Assembly: GCA_943333275.1 (NCBI GenBank) | Contig: CALQSQ010000002.1 | Span: 49,271-113,270, forward strand | Reading direction: 5' to 3' | DNA: 64,000 nucleotides | Source: Akkermansia muciniphila | GTDB taxonomy: Bacteria; Verrucomicrobiota; Verrucomicrobiia; Verrucomicrobiales; V1-33 | Shown here: in pieces, positions 44,065-61,828 of the stretch | Layout: every line of letters starts with the position of its first letter | Position numbering within the stretch: the stretch's first letter is position 1 | The notes under the pieces: generated by a model | What the model was told of the DNA's origin: nothing | The model's database searches: none | What the model saw: the letters and a program-made list of their open reading frames with translations, nothing else | Made by a program: the position numbers and the translations under genes

Positions 44065-44294
44065 TCCGCCCCCCTTTCCGATGCCCCGTGACGTGCGAAG
44101 ATTGTGTCCCGACGCAATCTTGCCTTTTCGAGGTCCGGCGTGCGGAGTGAAATCCGCACCCGCCGCTTGGTGAAGTCCGGCAGATGCACCGTGGCATGGC
44201 ACCACCAGGTGCCGTTGTTGTCCCAGAGGTGGTGGTTGGCATTCCGGAGATTGGTGCGCAAGGCCAGTTGGGGCGCGGGGATCGATTGGCTCAT
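44061..44294 (-). CDS. Small protein resembling the N-terminal DNA-binding domain of tyrosine recombinases
   Basis: 77 aa; GTWWCHATVHLPDFTKRRVRISLRTPDLEKARLRRDTIFARHG; stop overlaps MoxR start (ATGA). Confidence 0.5.
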   Translation of the reverse strand: MSQSIPAPQLALRTNLRNANHHLWDNNGTWWCHATVHLPDFTKRRVRISLRTPDLEKARLRRDTIFARHGASERGAE

Positions 44295-44798: not shown

Positions 44799-45192
44799 TC
44801 AGTCCCACAAGGCCGGGGGCCTGAAGTCCCAAACACGAAGCGGATCAATGATGGCAATCCCGTGGCCCTGATGGATGTGATGGAGGATGAGTTTGCGCAA
44901 CAAGGTGGATTTTTCCCGAACCCTTCTTCCCAATGATGTAGGTATGAAAACGCCCATCCTCGGGATGGATCACGAGTGGGGCCTCTCCGCCACAAGTGGA
45001 ACGACCGAACCATTGCGGGGTGCGGGAAGTTTCTGCATACACTTTGGAAGTTTTCCATTTGACTTCCACGCTTGTTCTGGAAACTTCCCACATCCACCCC
45101 TCCAAAAATGCAGACCGACGATTACGAGCTTTCATTCCCAGCCTTGCGAGGTGTCCAGGCTGGTAAAGAGTATTACGTTGCGATGTGTCCAA
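44799..45192 (-). pseudogene. HerA/VirD4-type P-loop ATPase N-terminal remnant
   Basis: Minus strand APLVIHPEDGRFHTYIIGKKGSGK then, after a one-base shift in an A5 run, STLLRKLILHHIHQGHGIAIIDP, then stop at 44799-44801. No downstream ATPase body. Confidence 0.6.
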
Positions 45193-46205
45193 TCAACCTT
45201 GTTGTCGATCTGATCAAGATCAACGACGACGACGACGGGGTTCCAGCCGATCTCAGGGCCCAGCGCAGCATGAACAAGGCCCGGATTCCGGCGATTACCG
45301 ACTACATCCTCCAGAATCCGACCAGCTACGCGTTCTCCTCTCTCACGGTCTCAATCGACAGCAGCGTTGAGTTTTCCCCCTTTGGAACCGAGGGACTTGC
45401 CCGCCGGATGGGCATTTTGAAGGTTCCCTACGGAGTGACCTACCTGATCAATGATGGGCAGCATCGAAGGGCGGCGCTTGAGCAGGCCCTCAGAGAAAAG
45501 CCGGAACTCAGGAACGAAACGATCTCTCTGGTGATTTACATTGACCAAGGTCTCAAGCGTTCCCAGCAACTCTTTGCTGACCTGAACCGTTATGCGGTCC
45601 GGCCAACCACTTCGCTGAGCATACTTTACGACAATCGAGATCCTATGTCCCGCCTCATGCAGGACGTCGTGGATAACGTAATGATCTTCCGTGATTTGAC
45701 TGAGAAGACCAAAACAACCATTTCGAACCGTTCCCGGAAACTATTCACCCTCAGTGTCCTATATCAGGCAACCGCCGACCTTCTAAGAAAGAAGAAGGGA
45801 ACGGAACCAACCGCCAAGGACCAGCAGATTGCAGTGGCTTACTGGACCGAAGTGGGCAAGAACATCACGGAGTGGCAGCAAGCGGCGGACCGAAAAGTAG
45901 CGACATCGGACCTTAGGCGGGACTGTATCCACGCTCACGGAATTGCGCTACGCGCTCTTGGCAGACTTGGCGTGGACTTGCTGGCATCACATCCCAATGA
46001 TTGGAAGAAGAGGCTAAGCGGACTAAAGACGGTGGATTGGAGTCGACAAGGCTCAGGACTTTGGGAGGGGCGGGCGATGACCGGTGGCAAAATCAGCAAG
46101 GCTCACAACAATATTCTTCTCACAGCCAACGTGCTCAAAGGGGCGGTTGGGCTTCCTCTGAATCCGCAAGAAGAGGAAGTAGAGACTCAATTCAAACGTC
46201 GATAA
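45108..46205 (+). CDS. dndB: DNA sulfur modification protein DndB
   Basis: Start MQTDDYELSFPALRGVQAGKEYYVAMCPINLV; INDGQHRRAALEQAL (DGQHR); first gene of the dnd cluster. Confidence 0.92.
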   Translation: MQTDDYELSFPALRGVQAGKEYYVAMCPINLVVDLIKINDDDDGVPADLRAQRSMNKARIPAITDYILQNPTSYAFSSLTVSIDSSVEFSPFGTEGLARRMGILKVPYGVTYLINDGQHRRAALEQALREKPELRNETISLVIYIDQGLKRSQQLFADLNRYAVRPTTSLSILYDNRDPMSRLMQDVVDNVMIFRDLTEKTKTTISNRSRKLFTLSVLYQATADLLRKKKGTEPTAKDQQIAVAYWTEVGKNITEWQQAADRKVATSDLRRDCIHAHGIALRALGRLGVDLLASHPNDWKKRLSGLKTVDWSRQGSGLWEGRAMTGGKISKAHNNILLTANVLKGAVGLPLNPQEEEVETQFKRR

Positions 46206-46232
46206 GAACACAGAATCGGATTAAGAAATTTC

Positions 46233-47645
46233 ATGAACGAAGAACGCATTACAGGGGAGCGCATTCAGGCTCTATTACAAAAAATTCGCGAGGTATACCT
46301 CAGCGACGGTCGACCATGGGTAATCGGCTACAGTGGGGGCAAGGACTCATCTTGTGTGCTTCAGCTCACTTGGTATGCCCTAAGAGGCCTTCCGGAAGAG
46401 CAACGAACGAAACCTATTTACGTAATTACATCAGACACCCTGGTGGAAACACCAGCGGTGGTGAACCAGTTGGTCGAGACGCTGAAGCAAATTGGCGATA
46501 AAGCCACTGCTGAAAAAATGCCAATCAGTGTTCACAAGGTGATTCCAGCCATACGTGACACGTTCTGGGTGAACATGATTGGCCGAGGCCTTCCAGCGCC
46601 ATATACCAATTTTCGGTGGTGCACTGATAGGATGAAGATTGCCCCAACGACCACATTTATCAAAAGCAAGATCGCGGAATACGGAGAGGTGGTAATTCTT
46701 CTCGGTTCCCGGCGTTCGGAGAGTTCGTCTCGCGGACAGGTCATGGCCAATCGCCGCGATAAGGGCGCTTACCTTTCCTGGCACAACGACATCGCCAACG
46801 CGCTCGTCTTCACACCGATTGAGGACTGGCATACGAATGATGTTTGGGAGTATCTCATGGCGGTTCCGAGCCCTTGGGCCGGACGCAATGACGCGATCGT
46901 CACGATGTATCGTAACGCTCAAGCCGGTGAATGTCCGCTGGTTATCGACAAATCGACGCCATCCTGCGGTGGGGGACGTTTCGGGTGCTGGACCTGCACC
47001 GTTGTGCAAAAAGACCGCTCCATGGAAGCCATGATTGAGAATGGCGAAGATTGGATGCAGCCGATGCTGGATCTTCGCGACTGGTTGACCGAAACCCAGA
47101 TTCCGGAAAACAAGCCAAAGATCCGTGATCACCGCCGCCGCAATGGCCGCGTGGAGTATTTCGACGCCGGAGGAGAAAAGAGAATCGTGTGGGGACCCTA
47201 TAAATTGGAATTCCGAAAGGAGATTTTGCGGAGATTGCTCCGCACTCAAATGACAGTCAGAGAAACCGGCCCGGATCCGGAAGTGCATCTGATCCGCCCG
47301 GAGGAACTTCATAAAATCCGCCAACTTTGGCTTCACGATGAGGGAGATTGGGAAGACGAACTTCCGGCAATCTATGAGGAGGAAACCAAAGAAGTCATGG
47401 ATTGGTTGGTAGACGACCATGCCGGCGTGGGGGGTGTCGAGAAGCAGCTTCTTGAGGACGTGGCTAAAAAGTCTGATTTGCCTGCAAACCTCATTCGTGA
47501 GCTCCTTGATGTTGAAAGGAATCATGCAGGAATGAGCAGACGATCCGGGATCTACGACCAGATCGACAAGATCTTCAACAAGGACTGGCGTGATCTTGAG
47601 GATGCGCTTTCTGAAACAGTAAACCAACCCGGCATCGACTCATGA
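46233..47645 (+). CDS. dndC: DNA sulfur modification protein DndC (PAPS reductase-like, Fe-S)
   Basis: VIGYSGGKDSSCVLQLTW and CGGGRFGCWTCTVVQKDRSM. Confidence 0.95.
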   Translation: MNEERITGERIQALLQKIREVYLSDGRPWVIGYSGGKDSSCVLQLTWYALRGLPEEQRTKPIYVITSDTLVETPAVVNQLVETLKQIGDKATAEKMPISVHKVIPAIRDTFWVNMIGRGLPAPYTNFRWCTDRMKIAPTTTFIKSKIAEYGEVVILLGSRRSESSSRGQVMANRRDKGAYLSWHNDIANALVFTPIEDWHTNDVWEYLMAVPSPWAGRNDAIVTMYRNAQAGECPLVIDKSTPSCGGGRFGCWTCTVVQKDRSMEAMIENGEDWMQPMLDLRDWLTETQIPENKPKIRDHRRRNGRVEYFDAGGEKRIVWGPYKLEFRKEILRRLLRTQMTVRETGPDPEVHLIRPEELHKIRQLWLHDEGDWEDELPAIYEEETKEVMDWLVDDHAGVGGVEKQLLEDVAKKSDLPANLIRELLDVERNHAGMSRRSGIYDQIDKIFNKDWRDLEDALSETVNQPGIDS

Positions 47646-49651
47646 TTTTCACCAAAATTGTCCTGGAGAACTACGGGCTCTTCTCCGGCCGAAACGAGTT
47701 CGACTTGCAGCCACGCGAGAAACGGGGGAAGGTTCGGCCTGTCGTTTTGTTCGGAGGAAAGAACGGAGCTGGGAAAACCACCTTCCTTGGTGCCATCCGC
47801 CTTCTATTTTACGGACGTCGTTCTCTTGGGGATCGCCTGAGCCAGAAGGATTATGACGAGGCCCTGGTCGCAAGAACTCACCGGAACAAGACCACTCAGA
47901 ATCGCGGATCCTATGGCAAAGTTGGCGTTGAGTTCGATTTTGTTCAGCAAGGAGAAAAAAACAGCTTCTATGTGGAACGGTCATGGACGATTTCAAGTTC
48001 AGGGACTGTGACTGAGTTCTTCCGCGTCGATAAAGAAGGAAAGCCATTTGATGAGATCAGCGCAACTCATTGGGAAGCATTCGTCGGGGATATCGTGCCC
48101 GAGAGGCTTTCACAGCTATTCTTTTTCGACGGAGAAAAGATCAAGTCGATTGCGGAAGACGCCTCCAGCAACGAAGCGATCTCGGAGGCTATCCAATCGC
48201 TCCTGGGGCTCGATGCAGTGCTTGCACTCAAGAGCGATCTTGCAGTTTATCGCTCAAAATTGCTCAAGAGCGAAGATCCAGCAGCCTATGAACGCGAGCT
48301 TCAGGAAATTACTAGAGAGCTCTCGTCATTCAGGACCCAGCTCGACTCGATTGACGAAGAAATTTCCAGCGTGAAAACACAGATAGATGGCGTCACTTGT
48401 TCGATTACAAACTTGGACTCACAGCTGCAGCAACGAGGTGGATCACTTGCGGAAAAGCGTTCTGAGAATCAGTTTCGATTTGAGCAGACCAAGGAATTGA
48501 TCACTCTTAAGGAACAGGGTATCCGCGAAGCATGCGAAGGCGCCGCTCCATTCGTGATGTGCCCGGGCATTGTATCGCTCCTTCAAAGTCAGCTTCATGC
48601 GGAGTCCGAAGGGCGTAGCCAGGCCGTGAGAGCCCGGACCGTCCAAGATGTGCGGGATCATCTCCTGCAAGCCAGTCAAGGGGAAGGTCGCCAGCAAACC
48701 TCAATCCGATCCTTCATTGATCAGCAACTCGATGAGTTTTTCCAGACGTCCATAGGCAATAAACCAGTCCGGACAATCCACGGCCTGTCCGAGAGGGCCT
48801 CCGTGCTCATGGAGGAAATTGTGAGTTCGGCTGGTCCCGATCAAGCTTCCCAGTTGGCGCAACTCTTTCTTGAACTGGAGGATGCCCACCAAACACTCAA
48901 GACGCTACAGCGCGATTTGAGCCACACTCCCGATCAGCGAGACCTTGCTGACCTTGTTACCTCCCTCAATGCATCCCACCAGCGGATGGGCAACTTGAAG
49001 CAGCAGGAACAGAAGCTCAATGAAGACCGGCGGCAAGTGGACATGAAGGTTGCCCAAGCTGAGCGCAACAAGGACCGGATTGAAGACAAACGCGCCACCG
49101 CCTCGAAGCAGCGTCTCAAGCTGGCACAGCTCCAAAAGCTCGGACCAGCCCTTGAGGAATACCGCCGCCGCCTAGCCCAAGCCAAAATTGAAACGCTTCA
49201 AAGTGAGGTGACTCAATGCTTCAACAAGCTTGCCAGGAAGGATGACTTCGTTCGTCGAATCGAGGTTGATTCATCCTCCTTTGCCGTCACCCTCTTTGAT
49301 CAACAGGGTAGATCCATCCCCAAAGAGGAATTGTCTTCTGGAGAGAAGCAAATCTTCGCAATCGCACTCCTCTGGGGCCTTGGCAGAACATCCGGAAGGC
49401 CACTACCAGTTGTCATCGACACTCCGCTTGGACGCCTTGATTCCGATCACAGGGCGAAGCTTATCGAGCACTACTTTCCCAATGCCGGGCATCAGGTGAT
49501 TCTTTTGTCCACCGATACCGAAGTGGATCAGCCGCTTTTCAAGCAACTTAGCCCCGCAGTTTCACATTGTTACCACCTCGAATATGACCAAAAAGAAGGC
49601 CGCACCAACGCCACGGAAGACTACTTCTGGCGCCCCAAGCAACTTGCTTGA
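47642..49651 (+). CDS. dndD: DNA sulfur modification protein DndD (SMC/RecN-like ATPase)
   Basis: LFGGKNGAGKTTFLGAIRLLFYG (Walker A), coiled-coil centre, LSSGEKQIFAIALLWGL signature, PVVIDTPLGRLDSDHR (Walker B). Confidence 0.95.
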   Translation: MIFTKIVLENYGLFSGRNEFDLQPREKRGKVRPVVLFGGKNGAGKTTFLGAIRLLFYGRRSLGDRLSQKDYDEALVARTHRNKTTQNRGSYGKVGVEFDFVQQGEKNSFYVERSWTISSSGTVTEFFRVDKEGKPFDEISATHWEAFVGDIVPERLSQLFFFDGEKIKSIAEDASSNEAISEAIQSLLGLDAVLALKSDLAVYRSKLLKSEDPAAYERELQEITRELSSFRTQLDSIDEEISSVKTQIDGVTCSITNLDSQLQQRGGSLAEKRSENQFRFEQTKELITLKEQGIREACEGAAPFVMCPGIVSLLQSQLHAESEGRSQAVRARTVQDVRDHLLQASQGEGRQQTSIRSFIDQQLDEFFQTSIGNKPVRTIHGLSERASVLMEEIVSSAGPDQASQLAQLFLELEDAHQTLKTLQRDLSHTPDQRDLADLVTSLNASHQRMGNLKQQEQKLNEDRRQVDMKVAQAERNKDRIEDKRATASKQRLKLAQLQKLGPALEEYRRRLAQAKIETLQSEVTQCFNKLARKDDFVRRIEVDSSSFAVTLFDQQGRSIPKEELSSGEKQIFAIALLWGLGRTSGRPLPVVIDTPLGRLDSDHRAKLIEHYFPNAGHQVILLSTDTEVDQPLFKQLSPAVSHCYHLEYDQKEGRTNATEDYFWRPKQLA

Positions 49652-50039
49652 TCTTACCCTACAGCGCATCCCCTTCGCGGAGTCCATCGACGCGAAAATG
49701 AGAACGTTGAGAGGACGCACGGGTATTACTCCGAACATCCTTGCTCGATTCGGCTTCTGCCTGTCACTCGAGGAACAAGGCTCTCCTCAGGATCCCTTCG
49801 AATCTGAAGGTGTGGGAAGGGAGATCAATCGCAATACTCTGCTTGGAGACAACGATTCGGTCTATATAGCCCTTCTGCGAACCTGGGTGGCCAAGAACGA
49901 CCTCATCGAAACCTGCACGCAGAAGCAGTTCAATGAGTTTCTCGTAGCGCACATGAACCGCGGCTTCGAATTGATCAGTTCGAGAATCCGTGGTCTTCCG
50001 GATCTTGCGTCACTTGTCGGTCGCGAATTCAAATCCTGA
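49584..50039 (+). CDS. dndE: DNA sulfur modification protein DndE
   Basis: 151 aa; TGITPNILARFGFCLSLEEQ and position after dndD, overlapping it by 68 bp in another frame. Confidence 0.9.
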   Translation: MTKKKAAPTPRKTTSGAPSNLLDLTLQRIPFAESIDAKMRTLRGRTGITPNILARFGFCLSLEEQGSPQDPFESEGVGREINRNTLLGDNDSVYIALLRTWVAKNDLIETCTQKQFNEFLVAHMNRGFELISSRIRGLPDLASLVGREFKS

Positions 50040-50044
50040 CAGCC

Positions 50045-51214
50045 ATGGATCAGTCGAAACGCCCCATTTACCTAGACTACCAGGCAACGACACCCGTCGA
50101 TCCCAGGGTCGTGGAAGCGATGCTCCCTTACTTTACGGAACACTTCGGGAATCCTGCTTCAAACAGCCACATCTATGGGAACGAGGCTTTGGCAGCAGTG
50201 GAGAAGTCCCGGGAGATTCTTGCGAAGTCCATTCAGGCAAAGTCACAAGAGATCACCTTTACGTCAGGAGCCACTGAGGCAATCAATCTTGCCATCAAGG
50301 GTGTAGCGATCGCCAACGAAAAAAAAGGCAGGCATTTCATCACTGCCGCAACCGAGCACAAAGCGGTTCTCGATTGTTTTGCATGGCTTGAAAGAAACGG
50401 CTACGAAACGACCATCCTGCCAGTAGACTCAGGTGGTTTGATTTCGATCGATGATCTGAAGTCCGCAATCCGACCAGACACGGTTATGATTTCAATCATG
50501 GCCGCGAATAACGAAATCGGAGTTCTTCAGCCGATTGAGGAAATCGGAGGCATCTGCCGTGAGGCCGGAGTCTACTTCATGACGGATGCCACCCAGGCTC
50601 TCGGAAAGATCCCAATCAATGTTCAATCGCAGAACATCGACTTGCTGGCTGCTTCGGCTCATAAAATCTATGGACCTAAAGGCATAGGAATGCTTTATGT
50701 GCGACGCAGCAACCCGAAGGTCCAACTGGTAGCTCAAATCGATGGTGGAGGTCATGAGCGGGGCCTGAGGTCGGGAACTCTACCCACTCCTCAAATCGTT
50801 GGATTCGCGAAAGCCGTTGAGTTGGCGAATATGGAATACAAGGAGGAGACGAGACGCCTCATGAATCTTCGTAATAAGCTTGAAGCTCAGATTCAGAACC
50901 TAATCCCCAGCGCAATTTTGAATGGAAATCGCGAAAGACGCCTTCCAAATAATTTGAATTTCTCATTTCCTGGGGTGGAGGCAGAGGCATTAATCGCCTC
51001 GCTCGTTGGTAAACTCGCTATTTCTTCTGGGTCTGCGTGCACGTCCGCAGAAATTAAGCCGTCGCACGTATTGGAAGGAATTGGCTGTAGCGTTTCGAGA
51101 GCAAGATCATCTGTGCGCATAGGGATCGGTCGCTTCACCACTGAGGAAGAAATTGACCAAGCCACAGATGCTTTGAGAAATGAGTTTCAACGCCTTTTAA
51201 CATTCTCAGCTTAG
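50045..51214 (+). CDS. dndA: Cysteine desulfurase, DndA/IscS type
   Basis: YLDYQATTPVDPRVVEAMLPYF, SAHKIYGPKGIGMLY (PLP lysine), SSGSACTSAEIKPSHVL (catalytic Cys). Confidence 0.93.
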   Translation: MDQSKRPIYLDYQATTPVDPRVVEAMLPYFTEHFGNPASNSHIYGNEALAAVEKSREILAKSIQAKSQEITFTSGATEAINLAIKGVAIANEKKGRHFITAATEHKAVLDCFAWLERNGYETTILPVDSGGLISIDDLKSAIRPDTVMISIMAANNEIGVLQPIEEIGGICREAGVYFMTDATQALGKIPINVQSQNIDLLAASAHKIYGPKGIGMLYVRRSNPKVQLVAQIDGGGHERGLRSGTLPTPQIVGFAKAVELANMEYKEETRRLMNLRNKLEAQIQNLIPSAILNGNRERRLPNNLNFSFPGVEAEALIASLVGKLAISSGSACTSAEIKPSHVLEGIGCSVSRARSSVRIGIGRFTTEEEIDQATDALRNEFQRLLTFSA

Positions 51215-51272
51215 GCCAAATTTAGGCGACATTTGATCGCTTACTTGTGCGCCTGGCTCGTCGCTACTTTTC

Positions 51273-52112
51273 CTATTCATCCGCAAAATAGTCACTATCG
51301 ATTCTATACGTTGAGTAGGACTTTAAAGTGGAAACGCCTACACCGTGTGTAATCATTAGATCACACAACCTATCCCCGTTGATTAAAACAATACTCTTTT
51401 GTTGTTTTTCAGCATAATCAATAGCTGTATTCGCAAATGAAGACGTCGTAATAAATACTCCCTTTTGAACATTTTCCATGGCCCCGACAAACTGTTGAAC
51501 ATCTGGGCGCCCAACCTTCTTTTCGGCGTACCTCTTAGCCTGAATATATATTTTACCTAAGCCTAACTCGTCTTCCTTAATTATCCCATCGATCCCGAAA
51601 TCCCCTGAGGATTCAGTCACTCGTCCTGCATCCTTGATGCTGCCACCGTAACCCATGGCAAGTAGTAGATCTACAACCAAGCGCTCAAAAAACGCTGGCG
51701 GAGAAGCGAGTATTTGATCTAGCAACATCGTCTTTACGGAAGATCGATGCTCCAAGTATGAATCAAATAACTTCTCCTCAGGTATCTTATCGTCGCTTGT
51801 CTCCTCTGATTGAACAGTATTTTTTGCTTCTAGAGTTGATTGGTGTGGCTCGAGTATCTTGTATAGCGTTCCATTCTTATTCTTGCTGTGGATGGCAAAA
51901 TGTTTTATCGGGCTGGCTGACGGGAAGTCTAGTCCATAGCAATGCTTCCTGATCTTATTATTTACTAGTCCATCAGGCGTCTTTGCTCCAAAAGTATACA
52001 GGCCACGGGCAATTATTTCGTTGTATATTTTTTTCGAAGTAAGGGGCGTGCCAGCGGTTGCGAGCACCTCTTTTATAGCCCCAACTATTGTCATGGAGTT
52101 TTTTGTATTCAT
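51273..52112 (-). CDS. HARE-HTH + Mrr-type restriction endonuclease
   Basis: N-terminus MTIVGAIKEVLATAGTPLTSKKIYNEIIARGLY (HARE-HTH); C-terminus FFERLVVDLLLAMGYGGS...DFGIDGIIKEDELGLGKIYIQAKRY (Mrr D-QAK core). Confidence 0.88.
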   Translation of the reverse strand: MNTKNSMTIVGAIKEVLATAGTPLTSKKIYNEIIARGLYTFGAKTPDGLVNNKIRKHCYGLDFPSASPIKHFAIHSKNKNGTLYKILEPHQSTLEAKNTVQSEETSDDKIPEEKLFDSYLEHRSSVKTMLLDQILASPPAFFERLVVDLLLAMGYGGSIKDAGRVTESSGDFGIDGIIKEDELGLGKIYIQAKRYAEKKVGRPDVQQFVGAMENVQKGVFITTSSFANTAIDYAEKQQKSIVLINGDRLCDLMITHGVGVSTLKSYSTYRIDSDYFADE

Positions 52113-52607
52113 CTAGAGGTCGGGATATACATCAAAAGCTAAAGATCTGCACTTTTCGATCTGAAAGTCCAGCCATGGCTTAAACCATCGATCTTCATTT
52201 TTCCACGGCAAAATGTGAATGTCATTGGATTTTGCAAGATTGTGAAGCTTGCAAAGAAAGACACGATTGAGTTGCAAAGTGGGCCCCCCCATAGAATATG
52301 GAAATAGATGGTCTTGTTGAATTTCTTCATCAAGATGACATTTATAACCCCACAATTCCTCACACTCGCAGTATGTTTGCAATCCGGATGAGGACGAAAA
52401 TGCGCGAGGGCCTTGAATTGCCTCTTGCAACTTGTTTCGTGATATTCCGATCGGCAATGCGAGTTCTTCGAGGTGTTCAGGGTGTAAAAGAGCGAGACGC
52501 TTATAAAGATCGTTGCCAACACCGGAATAGCTTTTACGCCAGCCGTGTCTCAAAGAGGCATGCAAGGCCTGTAGAAAGCGCGAACCATCCAGAAATTGGT
52601 GCATCAC
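52113..52607 (-). CDS. HNH endonuclease
   Basis: GTG start; QQDHLFPYSMGGPTLQLNRVFLCKLHNLAKSNDI (DH...N...HNxxK). Confidence 0.78.
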   Translation of the reverse strand: MMHQFLDGSRFLQALHASLRHGWRKSYSGVGNDLYKRLALLHPEHLEELALPIGISRNKLQEAIQGPRAFSSSSGLQTYCECEELWGYKCHLDEEIQQDHLFPYSMGGPTLQLNRVFLCKLHNLAKSNDIHILPWKNEDRWFKPWLDFQIEKCRSLAFDVYPDL

Positions 52608-54217
52608 TTCCAGTTGCTTAGTGAAACAGTGATACTCTCCTCATTGCCGCCGTAGACAATTATCTTCAGAGTAAGAATGAGCGGGTCTTGACTGGCCTTG
52701 TTGGGGTACACTTTTGGGGGAAGAAGATACTCCCCACTGGACTTGAATCGAATCGGATCGGCTGCACTGCTCTTTGCATCAAAGATCTCTAGATGTCTTG
52801 CGTTAGTCGATCTGCTTTTGACGCGGAAATATTTTCTTCCTGCCATCGGTATCGTTTTCTTTGTTCCCCTCATCAGGGTCTCATCGTGAATTCCCTTTTT
52901 AATCGCTTTCTTATTCCCATTCAAATGCTTGAATTCCATAACAACTTCGAGCTGATCTCCCGAAAGGTAATCCCAGATATTTGATACACCTGCTGGCAGT
53001 GCCTGATTCTGGAAGGAATATTCAAAGACATCTTTCGCTAATGTCTTTGATTTCTCGACCCATCGAGTCGAAGAAATGACGTGCTGTTGGAAATTCCAGT
53101 CGGTTTGACCAAAGTTAAGTTTATTGAATAGACTTTTCCAATCAGCTGAGGTTGGATTAGCATTACACTCTCTAAGGAATGTCAAAGCGCCACAGACGTA
53201 AGCATCGATCATTATTTTGTGGCAGAATTCTCTTTTGCCAAAGAATACCGACTTATCAGGTGCGCTCTGGACAGTTTGCTTCAAAATTTCGAATGAGTCG
53301 GAAAGTTGAGATGCGAGTTCTCTAGGTTCTATGTGTCCTTGTGATGCATTTAAACCATAATATGATTCATTTATAATGCTTTCGAGATCTGCGCAGTCAT
53401 ATTGGTGGCCTAAAAATTTAGGTTTTGAATCAAGCTTGTCGTTAAACTTTATGTCGTCGTGAAAGCCATTTTGGTTTCCCGTGAGGTGATTAGTTGGGGA
53501 TTTGCATAGATATGCAACGGCTTCCATAGAGCGATGATGCCCTCCATTTTTTTTGTATTTATCCAGTTCAAAGGCGAAAGTCAGCCACTCCTTATGCAGT
53601 GGGTCTAGCGGGGTGGCTTCCGTGGTGACTTGAGCAAATATTTTTGCTAGATTTCTGCCTGTATAAAATGTTCCAGAATTGTTGAGCAATAGAACGACCG
53701 GGATCAGATTGTCGCGTTGTTTGCAGAGAGAATCACCCAGGCCAGTGATGCGGTGCTGCCCATCGATAATCCACAGCGGTGGGGATTGACCACTTTGTGG
53801 GACTGGGAGATCGATAACTTTCATGGGGGTCGTGTATCCTCCTGGGGCCTGATAGGGTGATATTGTAATGCCAGTTGGTCCTCCTATGCATCGCTCAGCA
53901 ACTAGGACGGGATTAGGCATGAATTCCCCTGTATCATTGAACGTGTCGGTAATACGTTTGCTATTTTGGGGAATTAGTGGTCTTTGCCACTGCTTTACTG
54001 GCGGCGTCAAAACGTTAGTTGCAATGTCGTAGTTTGCCGTTTTTGTAGAAAAGTTTGGCACTTCGGCGATACTAAGAAGGTCTCCTGCCTTCAGAAATCC
54101 AACATATAGTGGGTATGTTGATGTGCCTGATTTGATGTAGTTTTCGAGAGCGTAGAGTTGCATCGGATTTATCTTATTGAGTATATCGTTATTAGAAGAA
54201 CTGAGGATGAGTGACAC
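52604..54217 (-). CDS. DGQHR-domain protein (DndB-like)
   Basis: PLWIIDGQHRITGLGDSL; 537 aa; overlaps HNH start and RSH stop. Confidence 0.85.
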   Translation of the reverse strand: MSLILSSSNNDILNKINPMQLYALENYIKSGTSTYPLYVGFLKAGDLLSIAEVPNFSTKTANYDIATNVLTPPVKQWQRPLIPQNSKRITDTFNDTGEFMPNPVLVAERCIGGPTGITISPYQAPGGYTTPMKVIDLPVPQSGQSPPLWIIDGQHRITGLGDSLCKQRDNLIPVVLLLNNSGTFYTGRNLAKIFAQVTTEATPLDPLHKEWLTFAFELDKYKKNGGHHRSMEAVAYLCKSPTNHLTGNQNGFHDDIKFNDKLDSKPKFLGHQYDCADLESIINESYYGLNASQGHIEPRELASQLSDSFEILKQTVQSAPDKSVFFGKREFCHKIMIDAYVCGALTFLRECNANPTSADWKSLFNKLNFGQTDWNFQQHVISSTRWVEKSKTLAKDVFEYSFQNQALPAGVSNIWDYLSGDQLEVVMEFKHLNGNKKAIKKGIHDETLMRGTKKTIPMAGRKYFRVKSRSTNARHLEIFDAKSSAADPIRFKSSGEYLLPPKVYPNKASQDPLILTLKIIVYGGNEESITVSLSNWK

Positions 54218-55118
54218 GAAGGCCTGCGGGTGTAGCGGCGTTCAGGACGAGAACGTCAAACCGAGTCTCGTCGACCATGCGAGAGAATGTGGAGTATTCC
54301 CTGAGTGCTTGTTCCCGCTCGGATTCTTTGAATTTGAATTCATGGAGAAGCTGTGCTCGCGTTCGGTCGTAAACGAGAAGGAATGATCCGGGAAGATTTT
54401 CCTCGGATTCCCACTTCGTGGCCTGCATGAACCGCTCAGTAAGAGTCGGTAGAATCGAGGTGAATGGGGAACGCTTCGAAACCAGAATTTGTGGCATCGC
54501 TTGCGAATCTGGCAAAGGCTCCCCGATCTCGATAGCTTCCACTCCATCGCGAATGTAGCCTAGGTAGCTAGAGACGTCCTCTGACGGTTTCCCTTCCTTG
54601 GTTTGTTCGCCGAAAGACTCCGATTCAATCGCCCAAAGATGCTGGGCCAGCGTGCGGAGTTGAATTTCCAAAAGCTGGCTTCCGTGACGAATGTTCAGGT
54701 GGACACATCGGTATCCGGAAGGTGGCGGATTTTTCCGGTAGTCATGAATATCCCGAAGATCCAGTTCTTTGATCAGGAGCTCCAACATTCGTTCCTGGGC
54801 AGCTACATTCTCGACCAAGAGGCGCAGGCCCACGATGTCCGCCACGCGGGACAGATCCATTCCGCGGTTCTGAACCCGCTTGAGTTTCCGGATGATCGAT
54901 TTAGTCCGCTTCGATCGGCCCGTGAGCAGGGACGGAATCTTTGTCGCCGCCAGTATCGCTTCCAGCTTCAGGGACATGTCGATCAGCAAGGGATCGAATG
55001 CGGCTCTATAGTCCTCCAGCTGGCGAATCAAGTCGTCGGAAATAGGCCCATCGCGGAGGGCCTTACCGAGTCGCTTGATCTGATTTCCTGAAAATTCCAT
55101 TTCTGAAGAAAATTTCAT
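54192..55118 (-). CDS. RelA/SpoT-type nucleotidyltransferase domain protein
   Basis: GRSKRTKSIIRKLKRVQ, RVADIVGLRLLVEN, HDYRKNPPPSGYRCVHLNI, LLEIQLRTLAQHLWAIESES: synthetase motif order; no HD hydrolase domain. Confidence 0.87.
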   Translation of the reverse strand: MKFSSEMEFSGNQIKRLGKALRDGPISDDLIRQLEDYRAAFDPLLIDMSLKLEAILAATKIPSLLTGRSKRTKSIIRKLKRVQNRGMDLSRVADIVGLRLLVENVAAQERMLELLIKELDLRDIHDYRKNPPPSGYRCVHLNIRHGSQLLEIQLRTLAQHLWAIESESFGEQTKEGKPSEDVSSYLGYIRDGVEAIEIGEPLPDSQAMPQILVSKRSPFTSILPTLTERFMQATKWESEENLPGSFLLVYDRTRAQLLHEFKFKESEREQALREYSTFSRMVDETRFDVLVLNAATPAGLRVTHPQFF

Positions 55119-55139
55119 TTCTGAAGGAAATTCCTTCTG
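55091..55139. promoter_or_regulatory. Palindrome plus 18-bp tandem duplication spanning the RSH start codon
   Basis: ctgaaggaaattccttctg (55121-55139) and aaaattccatttctgaag / aaaatttcatttctgaag (55091-55108 / 55109-55126). Confidence 0.45.
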
Positions 55140-55407
55140 AAAAGTTAATTACCTCAGGGAATCGGGCAGCGCCAGCGAATTCGACAGCCTTGAAAGGAAT
55201 CAGCAGGGCTTTACGCACCAAAATTCCAAAGAATGTCTAAGGGGCGATTCGAGCGGGATCGGGGCGTTTCTCACTCGGAGAAACAAATGCGTGACAGCAA
55301 GGCGCCTAAAAAGCGGATTAACCCATGATTTCCATGTTTACTTTAGATTAGAATAAGTAGAATTTGGTGAAATTTTGGTGCTTCGAATCTCTTGAAGGGG
55401 ATCTGAT

Positions 55408-57112
55408 TTATGGGAGAATTCCAACGACCGTCGGCTGGGAAGAAATTCGCCCAGAGGCAGTCATCCATTCACCTGTGTCCCGGTTGATCATTCGGGTATT
55501 CTTCCACCGCCGAGCAAGCTCCTCCTCCTGGTCTTCCGGAGTTCCCGCAATCAGATGATTCATGAGACGGTGTGCCCAAGATGCGTTACGTGTGAGAATC
55601 CTTCCACCGTCGACTGAGTAGGTTACGCCATACCAGGGGGAGCTTGGACGGTGGGCTTCGAACTTTCGGGCTTCGTCGAGCTCCTTTAATTTGCGAAAAA
55701 CTCCTTGCATGGAGCGGCCCCTTCCCCCGTCTTCTGGTAAGGTGATCATTGATGCCACGGAGTTCGCCAGAATTTCCTGTCCAAGTGGTCTCAGAAGGAG
55801 ATGGCCCCGGTTTTGCAGGGAATTGTCGAGCAGTTCACCCCGTTGGTTGACTTTGAAAAAATCCCGCCACTGGCTCAGTTCCCGACGAAAGTCATAGGCC
55901 GTATACTGCCGAAGTTCCCGAAAAATTGGCAGTCCGCTCACGGAGTTGAAGTATTCTACGGCCAAGGCTTCGGCTTCTTCGATTGCGGATTCCGACGGAC
56001 GGACCGCCACAGCACCGCGAATCTGGGGTTCCCAATGCCTGACCAGATGCTTGGCCGCGGCATGGAGGTAGGTGCGGACCACCGCCCTGATGGACTGAAG
56101 TGTGGTGAGATAGTGGTTCCCAACGGCAGGAATGCTCGTCCGTTTGAAGTCCACCAGAGAGGTGCCGTCGCGGAGTTTAAAAAGCCGGTGGGAGACGGCG
56201 ATTCGGCGTGCGACAATCGAAAACCCATCGTTTTCGTCGAGCAGGATGTTCTCACCCTTATCGGTTCGCTTGGCGTAGGAATTGATGGCGATAAAGACCG
56301 CACGCACCCGCCGATTCGCCTCGGCCCTGGTCTCACCCCGAACGACGGCGGGGATGTATTCAACCACGAGGGAATCATTCAGGACCGCTTGGAGACGCGG
56401 AATGTCCGTGTCGAATTCCTCCTGAAACTGCTCTTTGGTGATGGTGGTTCCCTTGGCCTGGCCATCTCTATTACGCATCTGCAGGAATCCCATGTCCCGA
56501 ACCTCCCGGATGCCACGGATTCCCAAGACACGGTGTTGGCCATCCAGCGCGAAAACCCTGGTGTCATCGAGATGGAGTCGCCCGACTCGGCCCTGCGGCT
56601 CGAGGGGAGCAAACTCAGTAGCGTTGACTTTCGCCCGTCCTTCGGCATCCCAGTTTTCGTGGTTGGGCTCGTCGATCCAAGCAGGGCTGACCACTGCAAT
56701 GATCGGACCGAATTTGCGCTCTGGGCGGGCCAAATAGGCTGCCAGGGCGGGCTGCCTTGTCCAATCCGGAGCCCGTTGCTTCACTTCGTCGGCGATGTTT
56801 TCATCGACTTTCAGGCGGCCGGTTTCCGGGTCGATATGCCCCTGCATGAACGGCATTTCAGACCCGAGCTTCACGTGCTGCCCGATCCATTCCAAGGAAT
56901 GTGTTACCACATACGAAGGAACCGCAACGGAACCATCCGACTGACTCGTACTTCCCATCTGACTCGAGAGAGCAACGAAGCTGCCAAGCTCTTCAACAAC
57001 ATTACTGAGCAGGCTCTCCAGAGCGTTACCCTCTCGTTGGCCCTGCATCCGCAAGATGCTTTCGATTTCGTCAAGATCCTTAATGGTGACTTTCTGTTGG
57101 TTCATAGCCATA
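55408..57112 (-). CDS. DGQHR-domain protein (DndB-like), paralog A
   Basis: RVFALDGQHRVLGIRGIREVR; start taken as MAMNQQKVTIKDLDEIES. Confidence 0.85.
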
Positions 57113-57184
57113 CAATCGGTGCAAGCAACCAAAAATCGCCCGCTTCCTCCAAAGTTGGAGAAAGCGGACGGCGAGGTTTTAAAG

Positions 57185-58870
57185 TTAAACGGGGTTGGGA
57201 AGCTCGATCTTTCCTTCATCGAACGGCCTCGCATCGCCGCCGTCGATCGGACGCCATGTTTTTCGGTTTCGATCTACCATGCGGGCCGTTGCGAAGTCTA
57301 CCCAGAGTTGGGAGAGGGCAGGTTCTTCCATCCCAGCGACGAGATAGACCAGTAAGTCATGCGCGAGCCCGCGCGATGAGGTGCTTGTGATCATTTTCTG
57401 ATCCATCGGATCGTAGGTTACCCCGAACCAAGCGTTCTCAGGCTGGTGTGCTTCGAACTTACCCTCTGAATCCAGCTTCGAGATTTTAACAAAAACCGCT
57501 TCAAGAGTCATTCCACGCCCCCCAAGGTTTCGTGGTTTGATGAGAGTCCCTACAGCTTCAGCAAGAATAAGCTGGCCAACCGGGCGGAGCAGCAAGTGCC
57601 CACGGTTATCAGGTTCATTTTCGCTTGGAAATTCCCTCCAGCGAGTAACAGCCTCCGCCCTGCGGTTCAAATCTCCTTTTTCCAGAACTTGAAACAGGGG
57701 GAGCATGTGCAGGTGAGACAGAAAATCGAAAAATTCGTCCTTCGCGACAGCTAGATCATCCTCACTTGGACGAATCGGCATCTGGCCGCTGAATTCGGTG
57801 TCCCAGTCCTTCGCTCTAACGGGATTGACCGCCGACAGATAGCCTTTTGCCATGTCCTTGATCGTCTGAAGTGTGGTATACCATTCGGTTCGTTGCTTCG
57901 GAATGGACGTAGTCTTCCAATTCACGCGATTATTTTTGTCGCTCGCGTTGAAAAGCTCATGGAAGATGCCGGCTTTCCTCGCGACGATTGCGTAGCCATC
58001 GGTCTCATCGAGAAGAATATTTTCACCCTTGTCTGTCTTCTTCGCGTATGAATTGATCGAGATGAAGGTGTTGCGGATTCGTCGTGAAGCTTCGGATCTG
58101 GATTCACCGGCAATCACCGCCGGAAGATACTCAACAATCATCGTCTCGTTGAGAAGTGACTGTAGCTCCTCCAAACTGAGATGGAAGCGATCCAGGAATT
58201 CCTCACGTGAGTAGGCTCGGTTTTTCTCCTTGCCGCTTTTATCCTTCATGACCAACCCGCGCGGCCCGTTTCTAACATCCCTAATACCCTGAATGCCAAT
58301 GACTCGATGCTGTCCGTCCAGTGCATAAACCTTGATTCCGTCAAGCTTGAGGAGTCCGATACGTCCTTCGAGATCGAGGGCAGAATATTCGGTCGCGCTT
58401 TTCAACGCACGGCCGTCCCTACTCCAATTTTCGTGCCTTGGATCATCCACCCAGTCCGGACTGACGACGGCAATGATGGGGCCGAATTTCCGCTGGGATT
58501 GCGCCAGATAAGCTGCCAAGGCAGGTTGACGACTCCAGTCCGGGGCGCGCTGCTTTACTTCCTCGGCATTTTCCTGGTCGATGATCAGTTTTCCGGCGGC
58601 ATCAATCTTGGTTTCCATGAAGGGCATCTGGGAGCCTAGTTTGATATTGTCTGCGATCCATTCGAGGGAGTGTGTTGCCGCAAAGGAAGGGACCAGTTTA
58701 GGGCTTCCGGATTCCGTCAACACTTTTCCCATCGCGCTAGCATGGACGAGGACGTAGCCTTTCTTATCGGTAGCCTCTTGTAAAAGCTGCGCCAGAATGA
58801 CTTTCTTGCGTTGATCTGCTTCCTGTTGCTCCCGCACAAGGCGGTCGAGTTCTGAATCGTTGGTGCTCAT
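57185..58870 (-). CDS. DGQHR-domain protein (DndB-like), paralog B
   Basis: KVYALDGQHRVIGIQGIRDVR; colinear similarity to paralog A (THSLEWI...KLGSxMPFM...VKQRAPDWxRQPALAAYLA...FGPIIAVVSP). Confidence 0.87.
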   Translation of the reverse strand: MSTNDSELDRLVREQQEADQRKKVILAQLLQEATDKKGYVLVHASAMGKVLTESGSPKLVPSFAATHSLEWIADNIKLGSQMPFMETKIDAAGKLIIDQENAEEVKQRAPDWSRQPALAAYLAQSQRKFGPIIAVVSPDWVDDPRHENWSRDGRALKSATEYSALDLEGRIGLLKLDGIKVYALDGQHRVIGIQGIRDVRNGPRGLVMKDKSGKEKNRAYSREEFLDRFHLSLEELQSLLNETMIVEYLPAVIAGESRSEASRRIRNTFISINSYAKKTDKGENILLDETDGYAIVARKAGIFHELFNASDKNNRVNWKTTSIPKQRTEWYTTLQTIKDMAKGYLSAVNPVRAKDWDTEFSGQMPIRPSEDDLAVAKDEFFDFLSHLHMLPLFQVLEKGDLNRRAEAVTRWREFPSENEPDNRGHLLLRPVGQLILAEAVGTLIKPRNLGGRGMTLEAVFVKISKLDSEGKFEAHQPENAWFGVTYDPMDQKMITSTSSRGLAHDLLVYLVAGMEEPALSQLWVDFATARMVDRNRKTWRPIDGGDARPFDEGKIELPNPV

Positions 58871-58875
58871 TATGG

Positions 58876-59236
58876 TTATTTGGTGTATCGAATTTTGTTG
58901 GTGAGTGGGGAAGTGAGGCGGATCAGCGTTTTTTCGGCTTCGCTGATCGCCGAGAGAGGAACTTCGTGGTGCCAGAACTCGTAGTTGCCGTGGGCGTCAC
59001 TAATCCGAGCTTGGGCCAAGTCGTCGTTATGCGAACGCGCGGGGCTCAAGTGCTGGGCAAAGACGTCTGCGAAGGTTGAAGGCTTTTCCGACATAGAGGA
59101 TTTCGATCGATGCCGGCAGCCCGAGGAAGCGGTTGATCCTCAGAATCCCGTAAATCCCCGATCGTGCGGGCACGGCTTTAGACGCGGCTGTGGAGAATTG
59201 GACTGAGTGCCAATTTTGTAGGTGTTGCTCATTCAT
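58876..59236 (-). pseudogene. GIY-YIG nuclease-like gene with a single-base frameshift
   Basis: Frame 1 MNEQHLQNWHSVQFSTAASKAVPARSGIYGILRINRFLGLPASIEILYVGKAFNLRRRL; frame 2 resumes AQHLSPARSHNDDLAQARISDAHGNYEFWHHEVPLSAISEAEKTLIRLTSPLTNKIRYTK. Shift maps to the T3 run at 59059-59061 (complement). Confidence 0.7.
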
Positions 59237-59343
59237 GAGCGGAGAATACACGATAAATCCATACGATGTCAACAACTTTTTTCTAGTTGGAGCAACAAAT
59301 TTGTAAAATCAGGATTTAGAGCCGTTGTTTTCCGTTTTATCTT

Positions 59344-59577
59344 TCAAATGAGCGAATATCGCCGTCCGTGCAATGCTCGGAAGACTTTGTCTGGGCGACT
59401 TCCGTCGGTCTCCACTCCAAGACAATGGCGGCGAATTGCCTTATTGACGACGCTTCCCGGGTATTTTGTTGGCAGGGGATGAAGTCCTCTCGCCCTAATT
59501 ATCGTCGCAATTTCATTTGATTGCATGGGGCGCCCCTCCGATTTGAGCACCTCGATCACGGCTTCACGAATTGTCAT
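59344..59577 (-). CDS. Stand-alone HARE-HTH domain protein
   Basis: MTIREAVIEVLKSEGRPMQSNEIATIIRARGLHPLPTKYPGSVVNKAIRRHCLG aligns with the N-terminus of the Mrr-type protein at 52112. Confidence 0.72.
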   Translation of the reverse strand: MTIREAVIEVLKSEGRPMQSNEIATIIRARGLHPLPTKYPGSVVNKAIRRHCLGVETDGSRPDKVFRALHGRRYSLI

Positions 59578-59797
59578 GGGTAGTTGGAGATTTTGGTTAA
59601 TTTGGCAGCAAATGCTTAATCCATGGACCTGGCACAGAGGGAATTTACCACCGACTGCCTGTTTGGCGACACCTTATACGCGCACTGTGATCTGTGAAAA
59701 CCCTGGGGACTAAGCGTGATCTGGAGGCCTCCGGCAGCCTTTGCGCTCTCCTGGAAGTCGGGGATGCCGGATTAGATGAAGGTGATTGAGTGGCGGG

Positions 59798-61828
59798 TCA
59801 CGCTGGAGGCAACTTCTTTTTTGGCATGAGGGATTCGGTCAAGCCATACCGGGAGCGGAGTTCCGCCAGGATCTCCGGAGCGAGGCCGTAGCCGGCGGAT
59901 TCTGGGGTGATATTCAAGCGGCGCAGGCGGTGGGAGAGCCGGTCGCAGGCGAGGCGCTCCGGATGATCCGGGCCGAGGAACCGCTCCTTGAAGCAGAGGA
60001 GTTGCTGGTAGGGAGGCTGGCGGTGATCGAAGACATCGGCGGACTGACGGCGAAGGTTGACCTTGATGCGCCAGAGCATGAGCGGAAACGGATTCTCAAA
60101 AAAGCTGTCGTAATACTGGAAGGTGACCTTGCCGGAGTGTTTGTGGATTTTGATGATGTCAGCTTCGTCTGGGTCTCCGTAGACGCGGGCGGCACAGAGA
60201 ACATAAATTCGAAGGATGGCAGGAAGCTCCGGCAGCAGGCTGCGGTGGATCTGGAGGGAATCGTCATCCGGGCAGCCGTGGGCAAAGGCTTCGCAGGATG
60301 ATTCGATATTACGCGAATCTCCGGCGGCGAAGAGCAATTCGCGTGCAGAGGCAAGCGAGGCCTCATAAGTGCCAAAGAAGGTTTTGATGTCGGCCTGAAG
60401 TCGATCGCTCATGTATTTAAGCGGAACCTTTTTCCGGAAATTGGCCAGAGCCAGGTAAGCCAGCAGGTCATCCCGTCGCTGTATGCGCGCAGCTTCCAGG
60501 GTGGTTTCCCCGTAGCGAGAGATAAAGATTTGATGAACTTTGCGCGGGGTGCCGACAACGACGCGGAGTTCCTCGAGCCTGGGGAATTCCGCAGCGGTGG
60601 GGAAACGGCCGCGATCCAGCATAACCTGCCAGCATGCGTCCAACAGTTCCTTGTTGGTCTCGTAGAGGTCCACGGCCTGGCGTTGGAGCCGTGGGCGGAG
60701 GAATCCGAGTCGGCGACTGAGGTTTTCCCAATCGATGACCCGGCGCGTGCGGCGGGCCATCCAATCCTGTGCCTCGCGTGGATCCCGAAAGATGGCGTAG
60801 ATTCCCAGACCGACAGGAAAGGCTTCTGCGTCCAGCGCATGTTCGATGAGGGCCTGAAGTTCTGCTGGCTCGAAATATTTCTGAAAGGTTCCCCGGCTTG
60901 TCAGGTAACCGTCGGCATGAGGGCGGATGGTAGTATATTCCTCCTGGCCATGCACCATGGTGGAGACCAGCAAGGCTCCTTCGGCGAGTTTCCAAGCTGC
61001 CTGCAAGACGCTAACTCGCTCGGCGGGCTTTTCGATGACATTGAGGACGAATCCGAGATTCACGAACCGAGCCGAGCGTTTGGTTTCGGAGGGAAAATGG
61101 GCTGGGTCCCATCCTGAGGCACTAAGGCCCAGTGCATTAAGGCCGACCACATCGGATCCCAATCCACAGCCGTAGTCAAAGAAGGTATCGGATTCGCGAA
61201 GCAGGCCTAATTCCAGAGCGACACGAACAGGCTTGGACAGCTCATTGCGCACGAGGGCCGTGCGGTGGCGGTGGATGGCGGGAGTTTCAGGCTCATCCTG
61301 GTCTTGGATTTGTTCCCCAAGCTCGGTTAAACTGTGCCCTCGGATTTGGAATCCTTTTTCCCGAAGCAGTTGTTCCCAATTCTCCCGAAATCCGATGGTG
61401 GATGTTTCCTGGTAGAGACCAGCAGCGACCTCTGCTTTGGTCAGACGCGAGAAGAGGGAGCGTTTGGGATGTTCCGGTGGCAGAAAGGTTTCTTTGCGGT
61501 GAAGTATCGGGGGATTCGAGTGCGTTGAGAAATCCGTGCGCTTCACCACCCCGGTGGCCAGATTCACCCGCACGGATTCGGCCAGAGCTGGATGTGCGAT
61601 TGAAAGAAAATCCGGGTAGCGCAGGAAGGAGATGGCGAAGTCTGCCGTCGAAAACTTGAGGATGTTAAAAGCGGCAGAGAGTCCAAGCCGTTGGAGGAGT
61701 TTTCCCACAAAGTTTGCAAGTCCTTGGGGCAGGGTGGACTCGTCCGGAGCAAAAACATAGATGGCCGTGGGCAAGCGTTTGCCAAAGGGAAGGTCGGCCA
61801 CGGCCTGTTGATATTCCGCCAGATTCAT
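59798..61828 (-). CDS. Putative DNA phosphorothioation-associated methyltransferase
   Basis: 676 aa; HRHRTALVRNELSKPVRVALELGLL, FFDYGCGLGSDVVGLNALGLSASGWDPAHFP (SAM-binding), FVLNVIEKPAERVSVLQAAWKLA; family known to sit beside dnd loci. Confidence 0.82.
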   Translation of the reverse strand: MNLAEYQQAVADLPFGKRLPTAIYVFAPDESTLPQGLANFVGKLLQRLGLSAAFNILKFSTADFAISFLRYPDFLSIAHPALAESVRVNLATGVVKRTDFSTHSNPPILHRKETFLPPEHPKRSLFSRLTKAEVAAGLYQETSTIGFRENWEQLLREKGFQIRGHSLTELGEQIQDQDEPETPAIHRHRTALVRNELSKPVRVALELGLLRESDTFFDYGCGLGSDVVGLNALGLSASGWDPAHFPSETKRSARFVNLGFVLNVIEKPAERVSVLQAAWKLAEGALLVSTMVHGQEEYTTIRPHADGYLTSRGTFQKYFEPAELQALIEHALDAEAFPVGLGIYAIFRDPREAQDWMARRTRRVIDWENLSRRLGFLRPRLQRQAVDLYETNKELLDACWQVMLDRGRFPTAAEFPRLEELRVVVGTPRKVHQIFISRYGETTLEAARIQRRDDLLAYLALANFRKKVPLKYMSDRLQADIKTFFGTYEASLASARELLFAAGDSRNIESSCEAFAHGCPDDDSLQIHRSLLPELPAILRIYVLCAARVYGDPDEADIIKIHKHSGKVTFQYYDSFFENPFPLMLWRIKVNLRRQSADVFDHRQPPYQQLLCFKERFLGPDHPERLACDRLSHRLRRLNITPESAGYGLAPEILAELRSRYGLTESLMPKKKLPPA

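Follow-up and report, generated by a model that had tools for sequence, protein, structure and literature searches.

A dndBCDEA operon and a convergent DGQHR-HNH-Mrr gene string as a candidate phosphorothioate-gated restriction module

The window analysed here (the whole stretch of DNA, 64 kb) carries an intact dndBCDEA modification operon, and searches of the draft assembly that contains it (5.8 Mb in 215 contigs, 94.85% complete) turned up none of the known phosphorothioate-linked restriction modules. Tail-to-tail with dndA lies a string of three genes that encode a DGQHR-motif protein (DGQHR-3), a small HNH endonuclease and a HARE-HTH protein with an Mrr-type endonuclease domain (HARE-Mrr). 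We propose, at chances that we judge a little short of even, that these three proteins are a phosphorothioate-gated restriction module, of the DndI/SspE/GmrSD type but split, and the partner of dndBCDEA. Most Dnd modification loci lack DndF, DndG and DndH (FGH), which raises the question of what reads the mark in them. The present locus offers a compact and intact candidate, with one modification operon, one convergent nuclease string and the known alternatives not found in the genome; if the proposal is true, Dnd too has the sensor-plus-nickase logic known from DndI, SspE and GmrSD, with the two functions on separate subunits. The features of the island are the following:

45108..46205, + strand: dndB, DGQHR/ParB-Srx family (TIGR03233 453 bits, cut-off 328; PF14072 6.6e-127)
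46233..47645, + strand: dndC, sulfurtransferase (TIGR03183 547 bits, cut-off 290)
47642..49651, + strand: dndD, ABC ATPase (TIGR03185 543 bits, cut-off 246)
49584..50039, + strand: dndE (TIGR03184 73.9 bits, cut-off 71.9; PADLOC DndE 7.5e-30)
50045..51214, + strand: dndA/IscS-type cysteine desulfurase (TIGR03235 429 bits, cut-off 480; IscS 500 bits, cut-off 643)
51273..52112, - strand: HARE-HTH + Mrr-type endonuclease (PF04471, Mrr_cat, 2.5e-34; PF05066, HARE-HTH, 4.8e-7; PADLOC type IV REase 2.2e-54)
52113..52607, - strand: small HNH endonuclease (weak HNH_5/HNH_4, 0.003-0.01)
52604..54217, - strand: DGQHR-3 (TIGR03187 2.4e-8 over residues 36-181; WQRPL and IIDGQHR motifs)
54192..55118, - strand: RelA/SpoT-type nucleotide synthetase with a CapRel-like region, PADLOC candidate PDC-S33 (PF04607 3.9e-17; PDC-S33 2.3e-38 full length)
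55408..57234, - strand: DGQHR-2, likely start about 57105 (TIGR03187 77.6 bits; PF14072 2.9e-12)
57185..58870, - strand: DGQHR-1 (TIGR03187 70 bits; PF14072 1.5e-9)
about 58882..59235, - strand: GIY-YIG-type nuclease frame, interrupted by a frameshift in the sequence
59344..59577, - strand: lone HARE-HTH domain protein, 77 aa (PF05066 31.5 bits, cut-off 25.9)
59798..61828, - strand: TIGR04096 phosphorothioation-associated putative methyltransferase (548 bits, cut-off 150)

An earlier note on this DNA stated that the modification genes are all present, and profiles and motifs agree. The genes are colinear and intact (45108-51214), dndD overlaps dndC by 4 bases, and dndBCDE pass the curated cut-offs. 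Key residues are kept: SGGKDS and four cysteines in DndC, the P-loop, ABC signature and Walker B in DndD, SAHK and SSGSAC in the desulfurase, and the DGQHR, QR and FxxxN motifs in DndB. Since the desulfurase falls below the cut-offs of both DndA and IscS, "DndA/IscS-type" is the safe name for it. Judged by its gene content, the operon is expected to mark host DNA with phosphorothioate. The longest reading frame of dndB starts at 45072, and the true start of dndE may lie 3' of the ATG at 49584.

The same note saw no DndF/G/H in the window and pointed to the rest of the genome as the place to look for dndFGH, sspE and pbe genes. Profile searches extend the absence to the whole draft assembly. 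DndH (TIGR03237) had no match there at E<=1, the best DndF score (TIGR03238) was only 11 bits, and DndG (TIGR03236) had no match, a weaker result as no control genome gave one either. For PbeA (TIGR04095) only helicase background appeared in the assembly, scoring 45 bits at most where the cut-off is 600. DUF262 (PF03235), which is found in SspE, DndI and GmrS, had no match genome-wide, and DGQHR-3 gave only a hint of 14.8 bits, below the cut-off of 33.2. Neither HNH nor Mrr matched NF045808 (SBD-HNH, ScoMcrA type) at E<=0.01.

In the convergent string, DGQHR-3 and HNH have 4 bases in common at the end of the former and the start of the latter, Mrr follows HNH without a gap, and the HARE-Mrr gene ends 58 bases from dndA. 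Of the three motifs of the DGQHR domain family, DGQHR-3 has QR and DGQHR, the latter at D152-R156, with FAQVT replacing FxxxN; it scores 34 bits to TIGR03187 against a cut-off of 58.9, and its similarity to DndB is confined to the region around the motif (hhalign E 0.002). HNH is encoded by its own gene and not fused to the sensor; its HNH_4/HNH_5 scores are weak, but DHLFP...LN...LCKLHN...KSN is intact and the D-H-N-N residues are kept. With the NTPase motif of DGQHR-3 also kept, the pair therefore resembles DndI, SspE or GmrSD split in two. HARE-Mrr is intact, carries a D-GIDG...QAK motif and has its HARE-HTH fused to a restriction domain beside Dnd genes, as in the Dnd-linked HARE-HTH+REase proteins (PMC10853773). 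The string has a GC content of 43.7%, whereas the left 44 kb have 58.8%, which suggests a separate acquisition. A PDB sequence search gave no match for DGQHR-3 or DGQHR-1/2, and the AlphaFold models of DGQHR-3 and HNH, at pLDDT 31 and 40, were left out of fold searches. An alternative start of DGQHR-3 lies at 54163, where its relative in L002 begins; promoter and terminator scans gave only chance-level results.

The slot that the string occupies is one where restriction cassettes are found in other loci. Tail-to-tail with dndA, a CxC/Pbe-type cassette is present in four dnd loci from this phylum (G132, G281, G350, G161) and in Rhizobium, and DGQHR with dptHGF in Aliivibrio. The nucleases and the methyltransferase had been noted earlier as occupying the position of restriction partners; this is right for Mrr and HNH, which are also the intact nucleases, and not for the methyltransferase and GIY-YIG, which lie 7-10 kb from the dndA slot, beyond RelA and two DGQHR genes. 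The GIY-YIG frame reaches 20.7 bits to PF01541 (cut-off 22.6), and only when read through its frameshift. Three further DGQHR proteins, the RelA/SpoT protein and the lone HARE-HTH had been overlooked.

The 5.8-Mb genome has four DGQHR proteins, DndB included, and the 14-kb island encodes every one of them. DndB, DGQHR-1 and DGQHR-2 (the latter two 44% identical) have QR, DGQHR and FxxxN and exceed the TIGR03187 cut-off of 58.9. None of DGQHR-1, -2 and -3 matches TIGR04172 (phosphorothioation-associated DGQHR protein 1), which a Rhizobium protein passes at 466 bits. A small protein beside TIGR04172 DGQHR proteins was considered as an HNH and ruled out, as it reads as a membrane protein.

Several known systems help to place the string. 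DndI, a DUF262 (DGQQR)+HNH protein beside dndBCDE, is a phosphorothioate-sensing nickase, tested by experiment, whose protection does not need FGH (PMC11662687). The IscS-DndBCDE-DndI locus is like ours in combining dndBCDE with a DGQQR/DGQHR-type NTPase and an HNH nuclease, FGH not being needed, but DndI is one DUF262+DUF1524 protein, whereas here DGQHR and HNH are separate, DUF262 has no match in the genome and Mrr is added. SspABCD-SspE (PMC9646914) shares the motif logic of a DGQ(Q/H)R NTPase and an HNH nickase; there SspE is fused and DUF262-type, and the modification here is Dnd. GmrS and GmrD, a DGQ(Q/H)R protein and a D-H-N-N HNH protein, occur both split and fused (PMC4619093), although their target is glucosylated hydroxymethylcytosine and no DUF262/DUF1524 match exceeds the cut-off here. 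The DndCDEA-PbeABCD (CxC) cassette fills the same tail-to-tail slot in dnd loci of the phylum; the convergent operon here has neither a helicase nor a CxC ATPase, and PbeA has no match in the genome. A general pattern already in print is that of Dnd loci which lack FGH and carry HARE-REase, HNH or URI/GIY-YIG nucleases; for HARE-HTH+REase beside dnd, a role as true restriction partner was proposed (PMC10853773). In the portions of that paper's text covered by our search, there is no DGQHR-HNH-Mrr-RelA operon and no DGQHR protein is discussed beyond DndB. The general pattern is thus already published, and the present gene set seems undescribed so far.

In the mechanism that we infer, dndBCDEA would place phosphorothioate marks on host DNA, and DGQHR-3 would act as a DndB/GmrS-type sensor NTPase responding to marked DNA. 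The separate HNH may be its nicking subunit, the two halves being fused in DndI and SspE, and HARE-Mrr a further endonuclease that brings its own reader of modified DNA. The three, possibly as a complex, would leave the marked DNA of the host alone while cutting or nicking invader DNA that has no marks, and RelA, encoded first in the operon, could provide a fallback by halting growth if restriction fails. The RelA protein matches CapRel 7ztb at 5e-9; no paper naming PDC-S33 was found in the literature searched. We lean towards the split module because no known partner was found and because the four DGQHR genes cluster and the string is tight, has one low GC content in common and lies in the restriction slot. 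DGQHR-3 and HNH also keep the motif pair of GmrS and GmrD, and DndI as a precedent, the HARE-HTH+REase proposal and the TIGR04096 methyltransferase in the island argue the same way. The earlier idea of a non-canonical phosphorothioate-sensing restriction module thus gains an intact convergent nuclease operon and the absence of known partners from the assembly searched; its sensing part is still inferred, and the neighbours could be independent defence genes. It is rather less likely than not that a three-part machine (DGQHR sensor, separate HNH and HARE-Mrr), phosphorothioate-gated and with RelA/SpoT growth arrest as fallback, is a new Dnd-coupled class beside FGH, Pbe and DndI.

Counting against the split module are the missing FxxxN and the narrow match of DGQHR-3 to DndB, the low GC and the relatives. 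Searches for DGQHR-3, HNH and DGQHR-1/2 in plasmids, phages, viral contigs and 390 phylum genomes yielded only one relative, of DGQHR-3: another genome of the phylum has it on a 2-kb contig, where it stands divergent to a cytosine-5 methylase and no dnd gene is present. The operon did not recur with dnd in the 390 genomes or, beyond the phylum, in one low-sensitivity pattern scan. Relatives of HARE-Mrr and of the RelA family also stand alone on plasmids, and cytosine modifications are a suggested target of HARE-HTH as a reader (PMC11037411). HNH matches in viruses (L077-L079) were rejected as relatives, being motif-level only, with neighbours read as phage or glycan genes; the RelA protein close to dnd in Rhizobium gave no phmmer match to the island RelA, and the idea that the two are one family was dropped.

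A real possibility, though short of probable, is that the island is a mosaic, in which dnd stands alone (epigenetic or regulatory, or with its partner lost or unassembled) and unconnected defence genes came to lie beside it, namely RelA, DGQHR-3-HNH-Mrr and those to the right. GC indeed differs block by block (dnd 52%, DGQHR-3-HNH-Mrr 44%, RelA 53%, DGQHR-1/2 54%, methyltransferase 57%), the plasmid relatives of RelA and HARE-Mrr are solitary, GIY-YIG is already broken, and the assembly is incomplete, the contig ending with the window 2.2 kb past the methyltransferase gene. However, all four DGQHR proteins and the phosphorothioation-linked methyltransferase cluster with dnd, and five proteins tested to its left have no PADLOC match, so the region does not resemble a broad defence island.

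It is improbable that the string is instead a type IV-like system against foreign DNA with modified bases, independent of phosphorothioate. PADLOC does place Mrr among type IV methyl-directed enzymes, HARE-HTH is a proposed base-modification reader (PMC10853773, PMC11037411), the motif relative GmrSD is type IV (PMC4619093) and the DGQHR-3 relative adjoins a cytosine methylase, but the string faces dndA tail-to-tail in the slot of restriction cassettes and the genome's DGQHR genes all cluster with dnd. That the extra DGQHR proteins are dnd regulators, a role reported for DndB, rather than restriction parts is very improbable: DndB aligns with DGQHR-1/2 over 279 columns (E 2.9e-5) and the different family TIGR04172 accompanies dnd with or without FGH, but the overlapping frames joining DGQHR-3 to HNH and Mrr would be left unexplained.

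By its profile score, the TIGR04096 protein is a member of a phosphorothioation-linked family, and dndC is found on at least 6 of 25 plasmids with this methyltransferase, against 0.02 expected. It carries a DYGCGLG motif, and its N- and C-terminal regions are mutually related (internal repeat 1e-7).

The window (G000:C2:49271-113270, in the source genome G000) ends on the right where its contig ends, in a draft assembly of 5.79 Mb in 215 contigs that is 94.85% complete. Profile searches place dndB, dndC, dndD, dndE and a DndA/IscS-type desulfurase on the plus strand. DndB, C, D and E each score above the cut-off of the curated model and the catalytic motifs are intact by inspection in these and in the desulfurase, so the modification genes are indeed all present, as the earlier note had stated. 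On the minus strand lie, in order of transcription, a TIGR04096 (phosphorothioation-associated putative) methyltransferase, a lone HARE-HTH protein, a frameshifted GIY-YIG nuclease, DGQHR-1, DGQHR-2, a RelA/SpoT protein, DGQHR-3, an HNH nuclease and a HARE-HTH+Mrr nuclease. The frameshift of the GIY-YIG gene may be either an assembly error or a sign of decay:

58882-59235, minus strand, GIY-YIG reading frame, frameshift near 59060

Immediately to the left of dndB, in divergent orientation, a run of genes (39517-44205, minus) holds an S-adenosylmethionine synthetase of divergent sequence (143 bits to metK, against a cut-off of 309) together with a MoxR-type AAA ATPase and a VWA protein.

Searches of the whole assembly for dndFGH, sspE and pbe genes returned no DndH, nothing over background for DndF, only helicase background for PbeA, no DUF262 protein of the SspE/DndI/GmrS kind, and no DndG, the last being a weak search since no control genome gave a match. 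Since the assembly may lack about 5% of the genome, the absence of DndF/G/H is well supported without being absolute. Decoupling of DndABCDE from DndFGH is common according to Rakesh, Aravind and Krishnan (PMC10853773), who found at least one endonuclease nearby in 80% of taxa with modification genes, among them HARE-HTH+REase (proposed to be true restriction enzymes), HNH and URI (GIY-YIG) proteins. The locus described here is an instance of this pattern; the text of that study, as searched, does not mention the DGQHR-3-HNH-Mrr-RelA operon or the DGQHR-1/2 pair.

The convergent dndA and Mrr genes are 58 bases apart. Four further dnd loci of the phylum (G132, G281, G350 and G161) have an operon convergent to dndE that encodes an additional DndD-like ATPase, of the CxC/PbeC type, and a protein of some 700 amino acids, whose position and size suggest the helicase-nuclease PbeA. 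The convergent operon is a CxC cassette in Rhizobium leguminosarum, which shares the dndB-C-D-E-desulfurase order of the window, and in Aliivibrio it combines dptHGF with a DGQHR protein and one small protein; the CxC cassette is colinear with dnd in Ruegeria, Pontibrevibacter and Halorubrum. Based on this comparison, the earlier proposal that the nucleases and methyltransferase occupy the position of restriction partners holds for Mrr and HNH and fails for the methyltransferase and GIY-YIG. A Chlorohelix plasmid (L088, 17905-19958) offers another neighbourhood pairing a DndB paralogue with an HNH: there, dndE is followed by a further DndB-like gene, towards which an HNH endonuclease gene converges, and a CxC-type cassette adjoins.

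A 4-base overlap joins DGQHR-3 to HNH, no gap separates HNH from Mrr, and the GC content of this string of three is 43.7%, compared with 52% in dnd and 58.8% across the left 44 kb. RelA, just upstream, runs 26 bases into the longest reading frame of DGQHR-3; with a GC content of 53%, it may be a separate addition. By analogy, and arguing from motifs and gene order, DGQHR-3 would be the sensor and switch and HNH the nickase. GmrS carries a DGQQR motif, resembles the DGQHR domain and has a ParB/Srx fold, its partner GmrD is a D-H-N-N HNH, and the two exist in split and fused forms (PMC4619093). Working with dndBCDE, the DUF262+HNH protein DndI restricts phage in the absence of FGH, sensing phosphorothioate through its N-terminal domain and nicking DNA (PMC11662687); SspE follows a similar scheme, but its activation requires the mark (PMC9646914). 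AlphaFold gave no usable structure for DGQHR-3 or HNH because of their lack of relatives. Overall, the observation is confirmed with the above corrections, and its reading as a non-canonical phosphorothioate-sensing restriction module is partly supported, by the absence of FGH and the placement of Mrr and HNH.

A TIGR03187 search found exactly four DGQHR proteins genome-wide, all in the island of the window. DGQHR-1 and DGQHR-2 are tandem copies (44% identity) alignable to DndB across 279 columns; DGQHR-3 has diverged further, its alignment being confined to the region of the motif, and has a domain score under the curated cut-off. None of the three matches TIGR04172, the DGQHR family linked to phosphorothioation by phylogenetic profiling (PMC3226654), a model that the Rhizobium protein passes and that the Pseudoalteromonas and Aliivibrio proteins match below cut-off. 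We give no probability for the clustering of DGQHR proteins with dnd, since two things confound it: defence genes tend to lie in clusters, and DGQHR-1/2 have a tandem origin.

Several findings weigh against a phosphorothioate-sensing module. The sole DGQHR-3 relative found among the phylum genomes, the plasmid, phage and viral collections and one pattern scan beyond the phylum (48% identity over residues 18-208) lies on a 2-kb contig (L002/L009, 1-1990, of G365), divergent from a cytosine-5 DNA methylase. This neighbour fits a modification-linked role rather than a phosphorothioate-specific one. Relatives of RelA and of HARE-Mrr also occur alone on plasmids, and the operon was seen with dnd nowhere else in the phylum, in the same collections or, beyond the phylum, in a single pattern scan that used two short peptides.

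On plasmids, TIGR04096 (METHYLTRANSFERASE) shows a strong link to phosphorothioation: of the 25 records holding a nearly full-length copy, at least 6 carry dndC as well, against 0.02 expected (hypergeometric p ~3e-14, optimistic because the records are not independent lineages), and other records have Ssp-like genes. In two genomes of the same taxonomic order, G330 (L034/L035) and G280 (L036/L037), it is followed by a protein of about 190-200 amino acids and an SBD-HNH-like 'PT-DNA_restrict' reader (84-86 bits, cut-off 180); no match to DndD or CxC was found in either genome, so TIGR04096 accompanies readers as well as writers. In the window copy (59798-61828, minus), related N- and C-terminal regions flank the SAM-binding core (BLASTP 1e-7). 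In G263 (L040/L041), a split TIGR04096 gene occurs with a desulfurase; a nearby convergent operon encodes an FtsK-type protein of 1748 amino acids and a MAD7-like one of 512, with a PAPS-reductase-like protein further along.
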